Assembly (NCBI GenBank): GCA_903872565.1
Contig: CAIQLG010000303.1
Coordinates: 1 to 32,824 of the forward strand
Direction of reading: 5' to 3'
DNA: 32,824 nucleotides
Source of the DNA: an uncultured Lentisphaerota bacterium
GTDB lineage: Bacteria > Verrucomicrobiota > Lentisphaeria > Victivallales > GWF2-50-93
Shown here: in pieces, positions 9,551 through 29,886 of the stretch
How positions within the stretch are numbered: the first letter of the stretch is position 1
Layout: every line of letters begins with the position of its first letter
Notes under the pieces: model-generated
The model's database searches: none
What the model was told of the DNA's origin: nothing
Seen by the model: the letters and a program-made list of their open reading frames with translations, nothing else
Made by a program: the position numbers and the translations under genes

Positions 9551-9657
9551 GTTACGACTCCTTTTAAACGGGAATTTAAATATGCCGCCTCACTGTGGTG
9601 CGGAGGTCCGAGATCCAGGGCTCTCTGCCCGCGAGACACACAAATCACGCGAGTTTC

Positions 9658-10254
9658 TCATTTACGCTTTTTCAGTTTCATCAATTGCCGTTTAAGGATT
9701 TCAAGATTTCTCTTCTTCTGTGGTTCCCTAAATTCAGTAGATGTATTTGTCCAATATTGGTGATGGGAGATGAAACCAATCTCATATTGAAGCCATTCGG
9801 CATCGGTAAAATTTTTCCCATGCACCTTAAGTTCCTTGCGCAAAAGATCCGATTTGTTTTCGAAGTCGGAAGTTCCAAGATAATCCAGATCGGCATCGCA
9901 GACAATTCTGTCGAACAGGTTCAAGGGATTCTGGGGAATGCGGGTCGCCATTATGACACCTTTTATCGTGGATATCTGCTTCGAGTTGTACCTGAAAGAA
10001 GGAAGGAGCTCCTGGGCTATCCTGCAACTCACCTCCTCGTTTTTGTCATATTTCTCAATAAATCCTACGTCGTGGAGGAGTGCCGCAGTTTCTACTATCG
10101 TCAGATTGTCCCCGGTCAACCCCTCCGCAAGTGAAATGGCTTCGGAAGACTGTAGGACATCAATCGCATGCTGGACGGAGTGATAGAAGAGATCCGCAGG
10201 CAATTCGCTCTTGAAAAGGGCTATAACTTTGTCTTGAAAACTGGAAAAATCCAT
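9658..10254 (-). CDS. HD-domain metal-dependent phosphohydrolase
   Basis: FYHSVQHAIDV...VETAALLHDVGFIEKYD...VCDADLDYLGTSDF shows the H...HD...D pattern. Confidence 0.85.
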   Translation of the reverse strand: MDFSSFQDKVIALFKSELPADLFYHSVQHAIDVLQSSEAISLAEGLTGDNLTIVETAALLHDVGFIEKYDKNEEVSCRIAQELLPSFRYNSKQISTIKGVIMATRIPQNPLNLFDRIVCDADLDYLGTSDFENKSDLLRKELKVHGKNFTDAEWLQYEIGFISHHQYWTNTSTEFREPQKKRNLEILKRQLMKLKKRK

Positions 10255-12699: not shown

Positions 12700-13773
12700 A
12701 TGAATTATAGTTTTATCAAGACACCATCTGGGGCTGATATGTATAAACTGGAACTTCCTGGCAGGACAGAGTTCAACTTCACTTTCAAGGACAGCTCAAT
12801 TCTGCACTGCAAATCACTTGTCGAAAGCTCCATAAAGGATCAAAATGCCGTTATCACCAACAGTTTCATTTTCGGTGGACCTGACGCGGCTCCGGGAACC
12901 ACAGGAATAAATGTTATCATCAGGGACAAATTCTGTTCAAAGTCGGAAATATCTTCTGTTCAATCATTTGCGATTTCCGGCACCGAGCTGACGCCTGTGA
13001 TTTTCAAAGGGAAAAATATAGGCTTCGTCTTTGAGAACGAAAATTTCCGCGAATGCCGCCTCTGTGGGATTGTCCCAGAAAATACCTTTCTTGCACGCGG
13101 AGAGCAGGCACGTTCGGTCTTTAACACTATTGAAGAGGCGCTTCGACTCTTCGGGTTCAAGTTCACAGACACTGTGAGAACCTGGTTCTACAATGATCAT
13201 ATCCTCGACTGGTACACCGAATTCAACCAGATCAGAACAGAATTTTACAATAAGACCGGCATTTTCGGGTCCTTGTTGCCTGCAAGCACGGGAATAGGAG
13301 CTGGAAACGCAGCCGGGGCGGCTCTTTGCGTCAATCTTTTAGCGATACAGACTAAGAATGACAAGGTGACGATCCGGGAAGTCCTGTCCCCTCTGCAAAA
13401 CCCTGCGACCAGCTACAGAAGCTCTTTCAGCCGTGCGGTTAAGATATCAGAGCCAGGATTCGAGAAACTTCTTATTTCCGGGACAGCCAGTATAGACAAA
13501 GATGGAAAAACCGCCCATCTGGATGATCCGGAAAAGCAGATTGAACTTACGATGGACGTGGTAAAGGCGATCCTTGAATCACAGGGAATGGACTGGTCTT
13601 CCATCTTCAGAAGCATAGTATATTTCACGGGCAAAAAATTTGTTCCGCTTTTTGAAAATTATCTCAACCGCAACAAAATCCGGCGGATACCTGCGGCATA
13701 CGCGTTTGCAGACATCTGCCGTGCCGACCTCCTCTTCGAGATCGAACTCGATGCCGTAAAACTTAAAGTATAA
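12700..13773 (+). CDS. RidA/chorismatase (FkbO/Hyg5)-superfamily-like protein
   Basis: 357 aa. C-terminal RidA-like region (LLISGTASIDKDGKTAHLDDPEKQIELTMDVVKAILESQGMDWSSIFRSIVYF) after a longer N-terminal part (RTWFYNDHILDWYTEFNQIRTEFYNKTGIFGSLLPASTGIGAGNAAGAAL), as in FkbO/Hyg5-type proteins. Confidence 0.65.
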   Translation: MNYSFIKTPSGADMYKLELPGRTEFNFTFKDSSILHCKSLVESSIKDQNAVITNSFIFGGPDAAPGTTGINVIIRDKFCSKSEISSVQSFAISGTELTPVIFKGKNIGFVFENENFRECRLCGIVPENTFLARGEQARSVFNTIEEALRLFGFKFTDTVRTWFYNDHILDWYTEFNQIRTEFYNKTGIFGSLLPASTGIGAGNAAGAALCVNLLAIQTKNDKVTIREVLSPLQNPATSYRSSFSRAVKISEPGFEKLLISGTASIDKDGKTAHLDDPEKQIELTMDVVKAILESQGMDWSSIFRSIVYFTGKKFVPLFENYLNRNKIRRIPAAYAFADICRADLLFEIELDAVKLKV

Positions 13774-13815
13774 ACATCGAACTCTCGTAAATATTCAGTG
13801 AACTATGTGTTACTC

Positions 13816-13858
13816 GTAATCGCGATCAACTGACTATTAGACTATTTCGCGATTTACC
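13816..13858. repeat. Inverted repeat/hairpin AATCGCGA...TCGCGATT
   Basis: Perfect 8-bp arms around a ~21-nt loop in the RidA-typA intergenic region. Confidence 0.6.
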
Positions 13859-13882
13859 GATGAGTCTGCTGTCGCGGGCTCA

Positions 13883-13953
13883 TCTCAGGAGTGCGCAGAC
13901 GATCAAGTCTGCGCTATGCTTGAGCGGTGACTTTGTCACACGCACTCCTGAGA
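13883..13953. repeat. 71-nt cloverleaf-forming element (13-bp outer stem enclosing three abutting hairpins)
   Basis: TCTCAGGAGTGCG (13883-13895) pairs perfectly with CGCACTCCTGAGA (13941-13953). Inside are CAGAC-GATCAA-GTCTG, CGCT-ATGCTTG-AGCG and GTGAC-TTT-GTCAC. Only A13940 is unpaired at the junction. Confidence 0.85.
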
Positions 13954-14004
13954 GCTTCGCTCGCGGGTATTGGATTTGAGAATGCGCAATAATAAAAATT
14001 ATAA

Positions 14005-14172
14005 TGTGGGGAAGATGTTTACCGGCAGTATGACGGAGAAGACAGAAATCCCTGGAACGAGATCGAATGCGGAAGCAACTATGCGAGATCAATGGCGGCA
14101 TACGCCCTGCTCAACGCGTTCAGCGGATTCCCTTTCGACATGACACGTTCCATGACAGGCTTCTACTGGAAT
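14005..14172 (+). pseudogene. C-terminal remnant of a GH116 (DUF608)-like glycoside hydrolase
   Basis: Frame reads [55 protein letters not shown]. An in-frame stop (TAA) lies immediately upstream and the frame runs into the typA 3' end downstream. Confidence 0.7.
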
Positions 14173-15984
14173 TTACTCTTCTTCGGCGGCTTTTTTGTTA
14201 AATCTTCTTCTGTCAAGCTCGGTCAGATAACGTTTCCTGAGCCTTATATTGCTGGGGGTTGTCTCCACAAGTTCATCGGCGGCTATGTATTCGAGTGCCT
14301 CTTCGAGATTCAGTTTCTGCGCAGGTGCGATTTTCATATTTCTGTCGGAGCCGGCGGCCCGCATATTGGTGAGCTGCTTGCCGCGTTGGAGGTTCACTAC
14401 CAGGTCACCCCCCTTGCAATGCTCGCCCACAATCATTCCCTCATATGTCACCTCGTTTGGATCTATGAAGAAAATGCCCCTGAGCTGAAGCCCGTCTATG
14501 GCATAAGGAACAGCCTTTCCTCGTCCCATGCTGATCATCACTCCGTTGATTCTGCCAGCCATTTCGCCCTTGAAAGGACCATAGTGCGAATAGCGGTGCG
14601 AGACGATGGCCTGGCCAGCGGTGGCGGTGAGTATTCTGCTTCTTATGCCAATTATTCCCCGTGTCGGAATGTAAAATTCAAGGAGATGTCTCACCCCGTG
14701 CTGTTCAATCAGGAACATTTCACCCTTTCTAACTCCAGCTATCTCGATGACTTTTCCGGAATAATCGGTAGGGACATCCACCGTCAAGACTTCGATTGGC
14801 TCGTGTTTCTGTCCATCCACCTCTTTTAAGATCACCTGCGGCTGAGAGATTGTCAGCTCGTATCCTTCGCGCCTCATGTTTTCTACGAGGATAGAGAGAT
14901 GCAATACCCCTCTTCCGCTGACCTTGAACGAGTCTCCGCTCATCTCATCAACTTTTAGCGCCACATCTTTCTGTATCTCCTTGAAAAGTCTTTCCCTGAT
15001 ATGTCTGCTGTTGACATATTTGCCCTCCTGTCCATAGAACGGTGAATCGTTTATCCTGAAGATCATCGAGATTGTTGGCTCGTCAACTGTTATCGGGGGA
15101 AGTGCCTCGGGGTTCTCGGCATCGCAGATTGTATCTCCGATGTCAACATCCGCGATTCCGCTGATTGTGCAGAGATCTCCGCAGGTGACTTTTTCGGTTT
15201 TAACCCTCTCTATTCCCTCAAAGGTCTGAAGCTGAGTGAGTTCGACTCTCGTTGTGTCGCCATTTCTCTTAATTATGGAGAGCGGCTTTGAGGCATCCAA
15301 GTTCCCTCTGTAAACCCTTCCGATGCCGATCCTTCCCAGGTAATCTGAATAGTCAATGGTGGCGACCTGCATCTGTACCGGGCCTTCAATTATCTTAGGT
15401 GACGGAACATAGTTAATTATCGCATCCATCAATGGAAGTATCGAGTTCCTCGGACCATCCAAGGAGGTATCCGCCCATCCATTTCGCCCGCTTGAATAAA
15501 TTACCGGAAAATCAAGCAGTTCGTCCGGAGGATGGAGCTCCAGAAAAAGATCATAGACTTTGTCCAGGACTTCGTCGGCGCGGGCATCGGCCCTGTCAAT
15601 CTTGTTTATGAGGACAATCGGCTTAAGGTGGAGTTTCAGTGCCTTGTCGAGGACAAACCGGGTCTGCGGAAGTGGTCCTTCGGCGGCATCAACGAGGAGA
15701 AGCACCCCATCTGCGAGGTTCAGAACTCTCTCGACCTGACCTCCGAAATCACTGTGCCCCGGGGTGTCAATGATGTTGATTTTTACATTTTTATAGTGGA
15801 CGCTTATGTTCTTCGCGAGAATTGTGATTCCGCGTTCTCTCTCAAGGTCGTTGCTGTCGAGAAAGCAGTCTCTGACCTCCTGATTGTTGCGGAAGATATG
15901 TGCCTGCTTGAGAATCTGGTCCACAAGCGTTGTCTTGCCATGGTCAACATGGGCTATTATCGCTATGTTTCTTATTTCTGTCAT
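14173..15984 (-). CDS. typA: Ribosome-associated translational GTPase TypA/BipA
   Basis: 603 aa. [78 protein letters not shown]-type C-terminus. Confidence 0.97.
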
Positions 15985-19253: not shown

Positions 19254-19330
19254 AAGATTAATTGCGAATAGAACGCTACTTTGTATAAGGTTTGAATGTG
19301 GTCGTTTATTGAATACTCAGAATTTCGCAT

Positions 19331-19354
19331 CATTAGCGTGTTTCGCGGGCAAAA
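19331..19354 (-). repeat. Dispersed short repeat copy (TTTTGCCCGCGAAACACGCTAATG on - strand)
   Basis: Matches 29785-29807 (TTTTGCCCGCGAAACACGCCAAT) with a single mismatch over 23 nt. Confidence 0.75.
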
Positions 19355-19360
19355 TAGAAT

Positions 19361-20374
19361 TTATTCTTTGGAGAGTATCCGCATTTTTGCGAGTGCGAAC
19401 TGGAAAATCCGTTCCACGGCCTTTGTATCGGTATGGTAGCCGGAGGTTTTACTCGTTTCCTGCCGCATAACTACAATATCCATTTCCCCCTCGTCTTTCC
19501 ATTCTGTCGTGATTTTTGGAACTGGGATTGAAATTAAACTGATCAAGAACGATGCCGGTTTTTCTGGCGGCTCGGCGGATTTTGAGGATTCAATTTTTTT
19601 CCTCATACCGAATTCGTTTTTCGCCACGAGCACACAGTAGAGATATGGAAAGTCATTTCCCTGTACATTGTTCAGGACGACCTGGATCTGAAGTCCATAG
19701 AACGAACTTCCGAGCGAAGGTTTCTGGAGAATCAGCTTGGCATCTGTCGGAATTTCTCCTTTTTCCGCCTTTGCGATCTCGATCTGGACATTCATCGCTT
19801 CATCTTTGTCCTTCATTTTTTCCCAGATGGAATAGACATACAGGAGGTTTTGGACTTTGACGACCAGCTTGTCGTTAGTGAGGATTCTGCGGACACCTGT
19901 AACCCAGTGGGGAAACAGCAGAACTACGCCATCAACGACAACAAGAAATCCAAGCAGAGGATATCCACATCCACACAGGATGATAAACAAAATTGCAAAA
20001 AATACGGCGACGGCGAGGAGCATCAGGAAGCCTCTGCCACATGTGATGTCGATCATGCTCTGATCCCAGGTTTTTGTTTTATTAGAGACTGCCACAATTT
20101 TCTCAAGCTGTTCCTTGTCGCCGGCGCGCCACTCTTTTTTATTGCTCTGTTTTTCCGGGATATTGGTGTATCCTTTTACAACTCCGAGCAATGATGCCGC
20201 CAGCAGAAGCATGGCACCCATAGGTATCCCTAGTATAAACCGGTTCAATAGGATCTGGACAAGAAACCCTGTGACAAGGATCAAGATTATGGACACAAGC
20301 CTGGTGTTGTAGGGCATTGATTTAGCAATGGAGAATTTGATTTCGCCGCGGCGTCTTGGATCAGGCAACAGCAT
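19361..20374 (-). CDS. Uncharacterised multi-TM membrane protein, third gene of the rSAM operon
   Basis: ORF track starts at 20596, but the ATG at 20374 with RBS GGAAGGAGGGAAT-ATG fits better; it overlaps the rSAM 3' end by 14 nt. TM segments (LVSIILILVTGFLVQILL, GAMLLLAASLLGVV, LMLLAVAVFFAILFIILCGCG...). Confidence 0.7.
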   Translation of the reverse strand: MLLPDPRRRGEIKFSIAKSMPYNTRLVSIILILVTGFLVQILLNRFILGIPMGAMLLLAASLLGVVKGYTNIPEKQSNKKEWRAGDKEQLEKIVAVSNKTKTWDQSMIDITCGRGFLMLLAVAVFFAILFIILCGCGYPLLGFLVVVDGVVLLFPHWVTGVRRILTNDKLVVKVQNLLYVYSIWEKMKDKDEAMNVQIEIAKAEKGEIPTDAKLILQKPSLGSSFYGLQIQVVLNNVQGNDFPYLYCVLVAKNEFGMRKKIESSKSAEPPEKPASFLISLISIPVPKITTEWKDEGEMDIVVMRQETSKTSGYHTDTKAVERIFQFALAKMRILSKE

Positions 20375-21695
20375 ATTCCCTCCTTCCCTGCAATTCACCG
20401 GTTCCCACCGCAGTCCAATAAAGGGGGCAGGCACCGGCGCAGGCGGTGAATTTTCCGCATCCGGAACATTCCTCCGGCGCATATTCCTTACGTCTGAAAA
20501 AGAGCGATGTAGTAGAATTCCACACTTCCTCGAAAGGCTTCCGAAGAAGATTTCCGACGGGCTGTGAATAGCTCGAGCAGGGCAGGACATCGCCATTCGG
20601 AGCGATGCTCAGAAGTCCGTCGCACGCGGCACAGCTCTTGTTTCCCAATCCTTCGGCAAGCGGATTGAAAATGCACATTGGAGTCGGCGAATACCACATG
20701 AATTCCACTCCGAGTTTTCTCGCGGCATTGCGTGCGGGTTCGACAAAAGACCATATTTTGCTGTATGATATCTGAAGCTCGCGTCCGGATGCGCTTCCCG
20801 CCGGAATTACCATGTTCATTGACATCCGCGCCATTCCAATTTTGGCCACAAACTTCACAAGATCAACAAGATGCTCCGCATTCCGTGAATTTACAGTCGT
20901 GTTTGTATGCACGTGTATGTTGGCATCTTTCAATGATGAAATTCCTTTCAATGTCTTTTCGAAGGATCCGGAGACTCCTGTGAGAGAATCGTGAGTTTCC
21001 GCTGTCGGCCCCTCGATCGAGATCTGTGCCGAATTTAGTCCCGCATCATGGAGCCGCCCTGCCAGATCATTCCCGGCGAGAAGGGTTCCATTGCTTATGA
21101 GATTCACTCTAAGCCCGGCTTTTTTTGCGCCTGCGACAAGTTCCACTATGTCCTTGCGCAGAAGTGGTTCTCCACCGGTGAAGCTTATGGAAGGCACTTG
21201 TGCGTCTTTTCGGATCACCTTGAAAATTTTGAGCAGTTCCCTGATGGACATTTCGGAGTCGCCGCCCTCTTTCTTCTGGCATCCGCAGGCGGCATAGCAG
21301 AATGCGCATTTGAGATTGCATCTGTATGTGACCGCGACCTCCGAGAGAACCGGAAGCAGGTTGAAAGATCCGGTATGCGGCACAGTTTGAACCGCCTTTC
21401 GTTTCTGTCCTTCGCCAAGGCACCCTGTCATCAGACTGCGAAAATCGCAGAGGAAATAGAACAGATCCATTTTCCTTTCCGCGTTGTCCCCAAGCCCTTT
21501 TAGTATCTCGTCTATTGAACGGCCGTCTTTCAGAAGTCGCAGAACTGTGAGTCCTGTCCGGTTCAATTTGACTGCCTTGTTCGGCAGGATGATAAGAAGA
21601 TCGTCGGCCTTGCGGACATCAAAATGTGGACGTATGTGCGAGAAATAGTCGTCAACCCAGCAGAAGTCATTTTCACTGTCGGATTTATAGTTCAA
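20361..21695 (-). CDS. Radical SAM/SPASM protein with N-terminal PqqD-like (RRE-like) region; putative peptide/protein maturase
   Basis: TYRCNLKCAFCYAACG (CxxxCxxC), SFTGGEPLLRKDI, SPASM-like CAACDGLLSIAPNGDVLPCSSY...CSGCGKFTACAGACPLYW. N-terminus PNKAVKLNRTGLTVLRLLKDGRSIDEILKGL resembles PqqD. Likely TTG start at 21695 with RBS GGAGGT, overlapping the upstream stop. Confidence 0.88.
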   Translation of the reverse strand: MNYKSDSENDFCWVDDYFSHIRPHFDVRKADDLLIILPNKAVKLNRTGLTVLRLLKDGRSIDEILKGLGDNAERKMDLFYFLCDFRSLMTGCLGEGQKRKAVQTVPHTGSFNLLPVLSEVAVTYRCNLKCAFCYAACGCQKKEGGDSEMSIRELLKIFKVIRKDAQVPSISFTGGEPLLRKDIVELVAGAKKAGLRVNLISNGTLLAGNDLAGRLHDAGLNSAQISIEGPTAETHDSLTGVSGSFEKTLKGISSLKDANIHVHTNTTVNSRNAEHLVDLVKFVAKIGMARMSMNMVIPAGSASGRELQISYSKIWSFVEPARNAARKLGVEFMWYSPTPMCIFNPLAEGLGNKSCAACDGLLSIAPNGDVLPCSSYSQPVGNLLRKPFEEVWNSTTSLFFRRKEYAPEECSGCGKFTACAGACPLYWTAVGTGELQGRREYAVA

Positions 21696-23398
21696 TGTGC
21701 ACCTCCGCTGACACAGGCCGAGTGGCATGCGGAATGGCATGCCGAATGACAGGCCGAGTGGCACGCCGAGTGGCACGCCGAATGGCAGGCGTCGTGGCAG
21801 GCCGAATGCACGAAACATCCCTGATAGCAGGCAGGGTTTTCCATAAAGCTCTGATAATTCCCGACATCTCCAATTATCGTTTTCACACTCTCCTGTGTTG
21901 CAATTGGAATACGATAAAATGTGTTATGCCGGCTCCCGCCCGAGTTGAGTAGATCGTAGTAGAACCAACGTTCATAATAGTCATTCGTGAAAGTTTTACC
22001 GGGCCTTGCGGAATCGTCTTCCTCCGACTCGATGACTGGCTTTTTGTCGAAGGCATCCTTGAACTTGCGCCTGTAATACTCCTTTGTGGGCTCGATGTCG
22101 GAATCCCAACTGTTTTTTTGCATTTCATCCACCATCTGTCCGATCAGAGCTTTCACTTTTACGGGATCAAGTTTGCCGTCGGTTCCTACCGCATTCAGAA
22201 GTGACGATTCGAATTTGTCCTTGACGCAATTGGCATCTAGGACATCAATACTTCCATTTTCGTGAAGATTGAGCACTCCCTGTCTTTGAAGTTTGCCCAG
22301 CATTATGTTGAGTATCTGGTTCACAGGCAAGCCTATGAAGAGGGCGGCCTCGAGGACTGAAAGCTTGGCGACTTGTCCCTCATTCCTGAAAGTTGTCATT
22401 ATTATTTTTGGCGGGGTCCAGTCCTGATCCACCCAGCTTATATCCGAAAGTCCGTCCGCAGCCTTGAGCATGCTCCTGTGCTTGGCAGCGATAATCAGAA
22501 AGAATATGACTCCTATGATGACTGCGAACACGATAAGTATTACCATTGAATATAAGCGGATATTGTTTTGTCCCTTCTGGTGGAATGGGATGGGAATTAG
22601 TGTGTTTTGGCCAGACTCAGTCTCCGGGGTATCTTCGATAAGTGGAGTTGTTGGGTTCGGAGAGGGTGGTATCGACAATTCAGGTCCGAAAATCGAAGCA
22701 TCAACATATTCCTGGACTTGGAGATGTCCCTTCGCCGGAACATTTTCCCAATGTATCAACTGCATCAGCCAGAATTTCTGGCCGGACTCGGCCGCGCTGT
22801 AATCCATCTTATATTGCGAGTTCATCCATTTTTCAGTCAAGATCTTCTGGGAAAGTTCTTCTCGTGTCGCAGTGCCGTTGGGAAGTTCCATCGGCCAGTA
22901 TATTTTCAATGTGTAGTGCCCAAGAGGATCTTCCCATTGGGCGGGTGCCCAGTTGAAGACCGCAAGATTCCGATTGCCGGAGTCCTTCGTCGGTGCCAGA
23001 TTGCCCGATGCCACAAAATCTGTTCCATAGGTGAAAGTGTAGATAATCCTGCCGTTTTTGACGGCCGCGCCATCCGCAAGAACAATGTCATATTTGTCTG
23101 AACTCACAGGCGTGATAGAAAGTCCATATTTTCTGTTGTTAGAATCTGTCGCATGGCATTTTTCCGGATCGAAATGCGGGGTGCCGGTGAATCCCTCGAA
23201 ATAGAAACCGTGCAGGCTGAATCCCTGCGGATTTATGGCTACATGATATACGATCGTGGCCTTGCCGTCAGGACGGAGAGAGACATCAACCTCGATAAAT
23301 TCCCAGCTAACCGCCCTGGATCCAATCGAACAGAAGATTAGCAGGAAAAGTATGGAAACTGTTTTCACGGATAGAATGTTTTGCAGTTTTACCAGCAT
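21692..23398 (-). CDS. DUF2207-like membrane protein with Cys/His repeat tail VHSA-CHDA-(CHSA)6-CVSGGAH
   Basis: 568 aa. Signal-like N-terminus, extracytoplasmic beta-rich domain (SLRPDGKATIVYHVAINPQGFSLHGFYFEGFTG...), TM YSMVILIVFAVIIGVIFFLIIAA, cytoplasmic region, Cys/His tail. Confidence 0.8.
   Translation of the reverse strand: MLVKLQNILSVKTVSILFLLIFCSIGSRAVSWEFIEVDVSLRPDGKATIVYHVAINPQGFSLHGFYFEGFTGTPHFDPEKCHATDSNNRKYGLSITPVSSDKYDIVLADGAAVKNGRIIYTFTYGTDFVASGNLAPTKDSGNRNLAVFNWAPAQWEDPLGHYTLKIYWPMELPNGTATREELSQKILTEKWMNSQYKMDYSAAESGQKFWLMQLIHWENVPAKGHLQVQEYVDASIFGPELSIPPSPNPTTPLIEDTPETESGQNTLIPIPFHQKGQNNIRLYSMVILIVFAVIIGVIFFLIIAAKHRSMLKAADGLSDISWVDQDWTPPKIIMTTFRNEGQVAKLSVLEAALFIGLPVNQILNIMLGKLQRQGVLNLHENGSIDVLDANCVKDKFESSLLNAVGTDGKLDPVKVKALIGQMVDEMQKNSWDSDIEPTKEYYRRKFKDAFDKKPVIESEEDDSARPGKTFTNDYYERWFYYDLLNSGGSRHNTFYRIPIATQESVKTIIGDVGNYQSFMENPACYQGCFVHSACHDACHSACHSACHSACHSACHSACHSACVSGGAH
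21713..21811 (-). repeat. 12-bp tandem coding repeat encoding Cys-His-Ser-Ala units
   Basis: Units on + strand of type TGGCAnGCCGAr; six CHSA, one CHDA and one VHSA tetrapeptides with synonymous codon variation. Confidence 0.93.
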
Positions 23399-29770: not shown

Positions 29771-29784
29771 TTGGAAAAAAATCT

Positions 29785-29817
29785 TTTGCCCGCGAAACAC
29801 GCCAATTACGCGAAAAA
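29785..29817 (+). repeat. Dispersed short repeat copy TTTTGCCCGCGAAACACGCCAATTACGCGAAAA
   Basis: Near-identical to 19331-19354 (opposite strand); weaker relatives at 104-135, 9627-9655 and 23613-23655. Confidence 0.75.
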
Positions 29818-29886
29818 CCAATAAATCCACGCGTTACGGGTTTTTCCTTATCACTAAAATATTTTAAAAATATTTTTAAAAAGGCC

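Follow-up and report, generated by a model that had tools for sequence, protein, structure and literature searches.

The analyzed window, a stretch of 32,824 nucleotides from an uncultured Lentisphaerota bacterium, carries a palindromic element between two convergent genes that encode a RidA-like protein and the TypA/BipA GTPase (table 1). These two neighbors fall on different contigs in related genomes, so no empty site could be shown at the locus. Between the element and typA, and overlapping the end of typA, positions 14029–14190 (plus strand) look like a gene remnant whose 49-amino acid translation is glycoside-hydrolase-like by eye and has no Pfam match. Other repeats in the window are a tandem 12-nt repeat (CAGGCCGAGTGG-like, seven copies) at 21702–21820, where the minus-strand open reading frames 20361–21818 and 21692–23398 meet, two tandem copies of a 28-nt unit (AAAAAATAGGTGTGACCCCGATGCCCTT) at 40–95, and a second dispersed intergenic repeat (TTTTGCCCGCGAAACACGCNAATTACGCGAAAAA) that is present in both orientations at 99–137, 9623–9661, 19319–19354, and 29784–29822 and also occurs elsewhere in the same genome (L009).

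Table 1. Features of the element and its neighboring genes (window coordinates).
Feature	Position	Strand	Basis or remark
Left neighbor gene, Ribonuc_L-PSP/RidA-like protein	12700..13773	+	PF01042, E 4.8e-12; stops ahead of the element
5' extension GTAAATATTCAGTGAACTATG...ATTTACC, including the inverted pair AATCGCGA/TCGCGATT	13787..13857	+	Common to some own-genome sister copies
Left flanking hairpin GATGAGTCTGC-TGTC-GCGGGCTCATC	13859..13884	+	Sequence
13-bp outer stem, 5' arm, including REP1 head	13883..13895	+	Sequence, fold
REP1: head GGAGT (13888-13892), hairpin GCGCAGAC-GATCAA-GTCTGCGC (13893-13914), T	13888..13915	+	
Inter-REP spacer ATGCTTG	13916..13922	.	Alignment; length varies in relatives
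REP2, inverted: head GGAGT (13948-13944), hairpin GCGTGTGAC-AAA-GTCACCGC with one bulge, T	13923..13948	-	
13-bp outer stem, 3' arm, including complement of REP2 head	13941..13953	+	Sequence, fold
Right flanking hairpin GAGC-TTC-GCTC	13952..13962	+	Copy alignment
Right neighbor gene, TypA/BipA GTPase	14173..15984	-	PF00009, PF21018

A preliminary description of this DNA had reported a 71-nt cloverleaf at 13883–13953. Its perfect 13-bp outer stem, its three inner hairpins (CAGAC/GTCTG, CGCT/AGCG, and GTGAC/GTCAC), and the alternative pairing of GCGCAGAC with GTCTGCGC were all recovered. The structure is far beyond chance: the minimum free energy as RNA is −40.7 kcal/mol against a mean of −21.1 kcal/mol (SD 3.0) for shuffled sequences (z = −6.6, with 0 of 200 shuffles folding as well), and perfect 13-bp inverted repeats with arms no more than 60 nt apart number one in the window, the same as in 20 shuffled windows combined. 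The pairings of the four-way junction exist, but the minimum-energy RNA fold is the one that had been listed as the alternative, a 10-bp stem carrying two 8-bp hairpins. The cloverleaf (−39.4 kcal/mol) is 1.3 kcal/mol weaker than this two-hairpin form as RNA and 0.4 kcal/mol stronger, and thus nearly equal, as single-stranded DNA (−23.8 vs. −23.4 kcal/mol), so that both folds are available. A contact between the loop sequences TCAA and TTGA was rejected because it is not conserved among copies (sister copies have GACTTA or GATTAA as loop 1, and in most relatives this loop is 3 nt long). ARAGORN detects no tRNA at the element. The element is palindromic, with both strands folding about equally, and it runs past 13883–13953 on both sides.

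The core of the element consists of two inverted copies of a 26-nt unit in which GGA[G/C]T is followed by an 8-bp hairpin, and the outer stem is formed by the pairing of the two heads and their neighboring bases. The two halves (GGAGTGCGCAGAC..GTCTGCGCT and GGAGTGCGGTGAC..GTCACCGCT) are homologous REPs; the first reads GGAGT-GCGCAGAC-AAA-GTCTGCGC-T and the second, on the opposite strand, GGAGT-GCGGTGAC-AGA-GTCACCGC-T. Full copies of the repeat start with TTACG, finish with CGTAA, and carry a small hairpin ahead of each head. Of 92 distinct REP contexts upstream of GGA[GC]TGC, 62 contain a hairpin of 5–8 bp, where shuffled sequences would give 6.5, in a search that was confined to short loops and stems and did not score the window's own copy. 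The window copy retains both flanking hairpins and has drifted at its right end, where relatives finish with ...GCTTCGCTCGTAA and the window has GCTCGCGGGTA in place of GCTCGTAA, a decayed form of the terminal TTACG/CGTAA repeat. Longer copies in the same genome contain an extra hairpin in the REP2 loop that is absent here. The 5' extension of ~70 nt is near-identical in two sister copies (L004 and L005), diverged in L006, and absent from L002 and L003, and it probably belongs to the unit that was copied in this genome. Four own-genome copies (L001, L004, L005, and L006) share a longer common unit; this unit is bounded by imperfect inverted repeats (AACTATGTG..TCGTAATC and GATTACGAACATACTTT), and a larger composite may therefore have been copied.

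The window's own genome (G000) was compared with seven further genomes of the same family (G001–G007). A 121-nt query found 16 matching pieces in the own genome and matches in four of the relatives. A covariance model built from 20 copies, with opposite-strand duplicates counted once, gave lower bounds of about 17 sites in G000, 28 in G003, 25 in G005, 14 in G006, and 13 in G007. Within the order but outside the family, only two genomes contained matches, one of them strong (G078). A search of a plasmid collection found no match to the element and a search of viral contigs no match to the core pattern. The midpoints of 3 of 15 copies lie in open frames of at least 150 codons, compared with 85% of the flanking DNA, and the copies adjoin unrelated genes in differing orientations; near one of them a Cobalamin riboswitch was identified (77.4 bits, G000:C215, L003 2045–2231, minus strand). 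The core is nearly invariant inside the subfamily of the window, where covariation says little. Between subfamilies the REP hairpin does covary: across 26 distinct REPs, both-sided changes occur at six of the eight stem pairs, with pair types as different as U-A, A-U, C-G, and G-C at a single position, and the double-changed cells number 49 against 16.1 in shuffled data (0 of 500 shuffles reach 49, slid controls ≤12), counts that come from a hand-picked list and that kinship among the sequences inflates. A unique locus free of covariation, which the preliminary description had equated with chance or a single decaying element, is thus not what was found.

A strong fold would also be expected of a structured noncoding or cis-regulatory RNA (riboswitch, sRNA, or ribozyme), and the flanking hairpins add a second likeness of this kind. 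In sister copies the left flanking hairpin has the form GATGAG...CGAATC with tandem G.A pairs, and the same hairpin type, with stems that differ by genome in a compensatory manner, is found at L006, L007, L032, L046, L050, L153, and L201; it resembles stem II of the hammerhead core, presumably on account of tandem sheared G.A pairs. A hammerhead ribozyme itself was rejected, as it has no Rfam support and a G would occupy the cleavage position if the long stem were taken as stem III. No Rfam family matched the window at the gathering score or the element in its sister copies at E ≤1, both strands of the palindrome fold alike, and the copies adjoin unrelated genes and track RAYT transposase genes. 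An RNA regulatory element, as had been suggested earlier, is for these reasons unsupported, and we regard a cloverleaf that works as RNA as highly improbable. An integron attC site was also considered and rejected, with no GTTRRRY-type end boxes seen on inspection.

RAYT genes are present in all eight genomes of the family, many of which carry several kinds. A 176-amino acid gene on contig G003:C96 lies between copies of the unit; it is one of four RAYTs of its clade that exceed the NF047646 cut-off (81–91 bits vs. 80), and some other members of the clade fall just under it. In a phylogenetic tree of 68 RAYTs, the ten genes with GGA[GC]TGC units on both sides form exactly one clade (support 100/99), and none of the other 58 is bracketed in this way. 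The ten proteins share an invariant H64-x-H66 (HUH) motif and Y125...N129, P130 (class-2 Y---NP), and the best PDB match of the member on G000:C38 is the E. coli TnpA_REP (4er8, E = 9e-4). Under a stricter test, in which each flank had to carry a head and a hairpin with 7 bp or more of perfect pairing, GGA[GC]T hairpins were found at seven of the ten clade genes and at none of the 58 others, whereas GT[AG]G hairpins were found at none of the ten and at 12 of the 58, which shows that the head type follows the RAYT clade within the same genomes. One further locus (G006:C54) was rejected as REP-flanked since its GGACTGC motifs lack a hairpin. Several distinct RAYT clades coexist within single genomes, with 10–19 NF047646 matches in five of the eight, and one clade of 337–350-amino acid RAYTs has neither GGA[GC]T nor GT[AG]G hairpins on both flanks.

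The subtype of unit found in the window brackets the RAYT genes on G003:C96 and G005:C67, which form a pair within the clade (support 100/99). The two clade RAYTs of the own genome (G000:C38 and C410) are flanked by related subtypes, and the flanks of the former are matched by the covariance model of the window family (36.9 bits, E = 5.8e-8). A RAYT of the window's own subtype was not found in the fragmented, 93.6% complete assembly of G000; its copies could therefore be relics, or the gene could be located in sequence missing from the assembly. A profile of the ten proteins, run against 388 genomes sampled from the phylum, identified the clade in 42 of them, in 32 genera. Outside the family, GGA[GC]TGC is present on both flanks within 450 nt at 27 of 29 loci (the best-scoring ones and not a random draw), where ~3% would be expected by chance, and the typical form of the flank is TTTGGAGTGCGGCGGC..GCCGCTTT.

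The association with one RAYT clade also bears on the possibility that the element is a MITE or a palindromic repeat of another kind that owes its movement to a DD(E/D) transposase or an IS200-type TnpA, with the nearby RAYT genes being incidental. The terminal TTACG/CGTAA inverted repeats and the longer common flanks of the G000 copies would suit such an origin. However, bracketing is exclusive to a single RAYT clade and conserved phylum-wide, the unit is made of two REPs, each with head and hairpin, and the aligned copies display no visible target-site duplication, which makes this explanation very unlikely. REPs are defined by a head next to a hairpin, and the name REPIN applies to inverted REP doublets that fold (PMC3116915); we accordingly identify the element as a REPIN, that is, two inverted REPs of 26–28 nt (GGAGT plus an 8-bp hairpin) with small flanking hairpins that belong to a dispersed intergenic family, with a probability of roughly 90%. 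Homologous inverted REPs separated by a spacer, multiple extragenic copies, compensatory pairing, and the same REP type flanking RAYT genes all support this identification; the lack of an own-subtype RAYT in G000, the modest copy number, and a head other than GT[AG]G count against it. The spread of the repeat between genes, in this bacterium as in its relatives, was almost certainly the work of a RAYT transposase. Among the possibilities raised in the preliminary description, the mobile structured repeat is upheld and can be specified as a RAYT-system REPIN/BIME made of two inverted REPs, and a recombination or protein-binding hairpin fits as well, given that a RAYT working on single-stranded DNA would be expected to read it.

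Biochemical studies of the TnpA_REP proteins of E. coli, Stenotrophomonas, and Marinomonas describe binding of the single-stranded hairpin and head and cleavage near the foot, at a dinucleotide set by the head; in this model the AG that ends GTAG selects CT (PMC8266576). By analogy, the doublet would fold while the DNA is transiently single-stranded, a RAYT of the GGA[GC]T clade would read head and hairpin and cleave near the hairpin foot through its HUH-Tyr site, and the unit would then be moved or copied to another intergenic site. GGAG keeps the AG and CT follows the foot (GC|T), which might conceivably fit the GTAG cleavage model.

The REPINs and RAYTs of Pseudomonas fluorescens SBW25 (Bertels and Rainey 2011, PMC3116915) provide the closest parallel in structure: they too are inverted REP doublets with a spacer that fold as one long hairpin or as a "clover" (a fold named in the legend of their fig. 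S11), are extragenic, show compensatory changes, and adjoin RAYT genes with units of the same type. The element differs from them in the sequence of head and hairpin, in the extra small hairpins outside each REP, and in its far lower copy number, REPs of Pseudomonas or Stenotrophomonas having been reported in hundreds of copies. With the canonical GTAG-headed REPs (Nunvar 2010, PMC2817692; Di Nocera 2013, PMC3733652; Quentin 2018, PMC6006769) it shares a short head immediately 5' to a hairpin that is itself short (most stems 6–9 bp), the bracketing of RAYT genes by inverted copies, and a REP type of its own for each RAYT, but it does not have GT[AG]G at 0–2 nt from the hairpin foot. As in E. 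coli TnpA_REP (YafM, PDB 4er8; Y/Z BIMEs), HUH and Y...N motifs are present and the gene is flanked by inverted REP doublets. In contrast, the guide-region residues W94, Q95, E100, H101, and R104 of the E. coli protein align, in a weak pairwise alignment, to W, F/Y, D, S/R/K/T, and mostly T in the clade, and the conserved bulge of E. coli REP stems is absent from the stems here.

REPs elsewhere have been reported to act in transcription termination, mRNA stability, and gyrase binding (PMC6006769), and copies of a formerly mobile family may now be kept for a host role, as bidirectional terminators, mRNA 3'-end stabilizers, or binding sites for gyrase or other proteins, with the window copy serving the ridA-like/typA pair. 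This is compatible with a REPIN origin, to which it adds a present-day function, and the position between two convergent genes as well as the roles reported for other REPs would favor it. The stem is not followed by a T-run, however, other copies lie beside differently oriented genes, and the ends of the window copy have drifted from the consensus, and such a role is therefore considered unlikely. The window copy is probably a decaying REPIN that is now an immobile relic, given the drift at its ends and in one REP stem and the failure to find a RAYT of its subtype in G000.

REPINs are already known and the basic finding is ordinary biology; the part of interest is the head switch that is tightly tied to one RAYT clade. 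The REP heads described in the open literature searched are GT[AG]G, CGTC tags without a transposase, and CnGA in class 3, together with atypical structures in Bacteroidetes, and the REPs of the PVC bacteria have been described as GTAG-type (e.g., Opitutus terrae). A GGA[GC]T head was not found in this literature, and both this head and the small hairpin preceding it appear to be undescribed there. We lean toward the view that the GGA[GC]T REPs and their RAYT clade represent a TnpA_REP lineage that is phylum-wide and undescribed, with a guide changed from GT[AG]G to GGA[GC]T and a substrate that became bipartite (small hairpin, 3–4 nt, guide, REP hairpin). The GGA[GC]T system is found across the phylum of the window and coexists with GT[AG]G systems of other RAYT clades in single genomes, so that guide specificity should be mappable by comparing the clades. 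There is as yet no settled account of how RAYTs select and mobilize REPs, and the examples studied are nearly all GT[AG]G-headed; a clade that is widespread, is strictly tied to another head, and shares its genomes with GT[AG]G systems offers a guide swap performed by nature. The clade also accounts for one class of strong cloverleaf and palindrome signals between genes in this phylum, which might otherwise be taken for noncoding RNAs.
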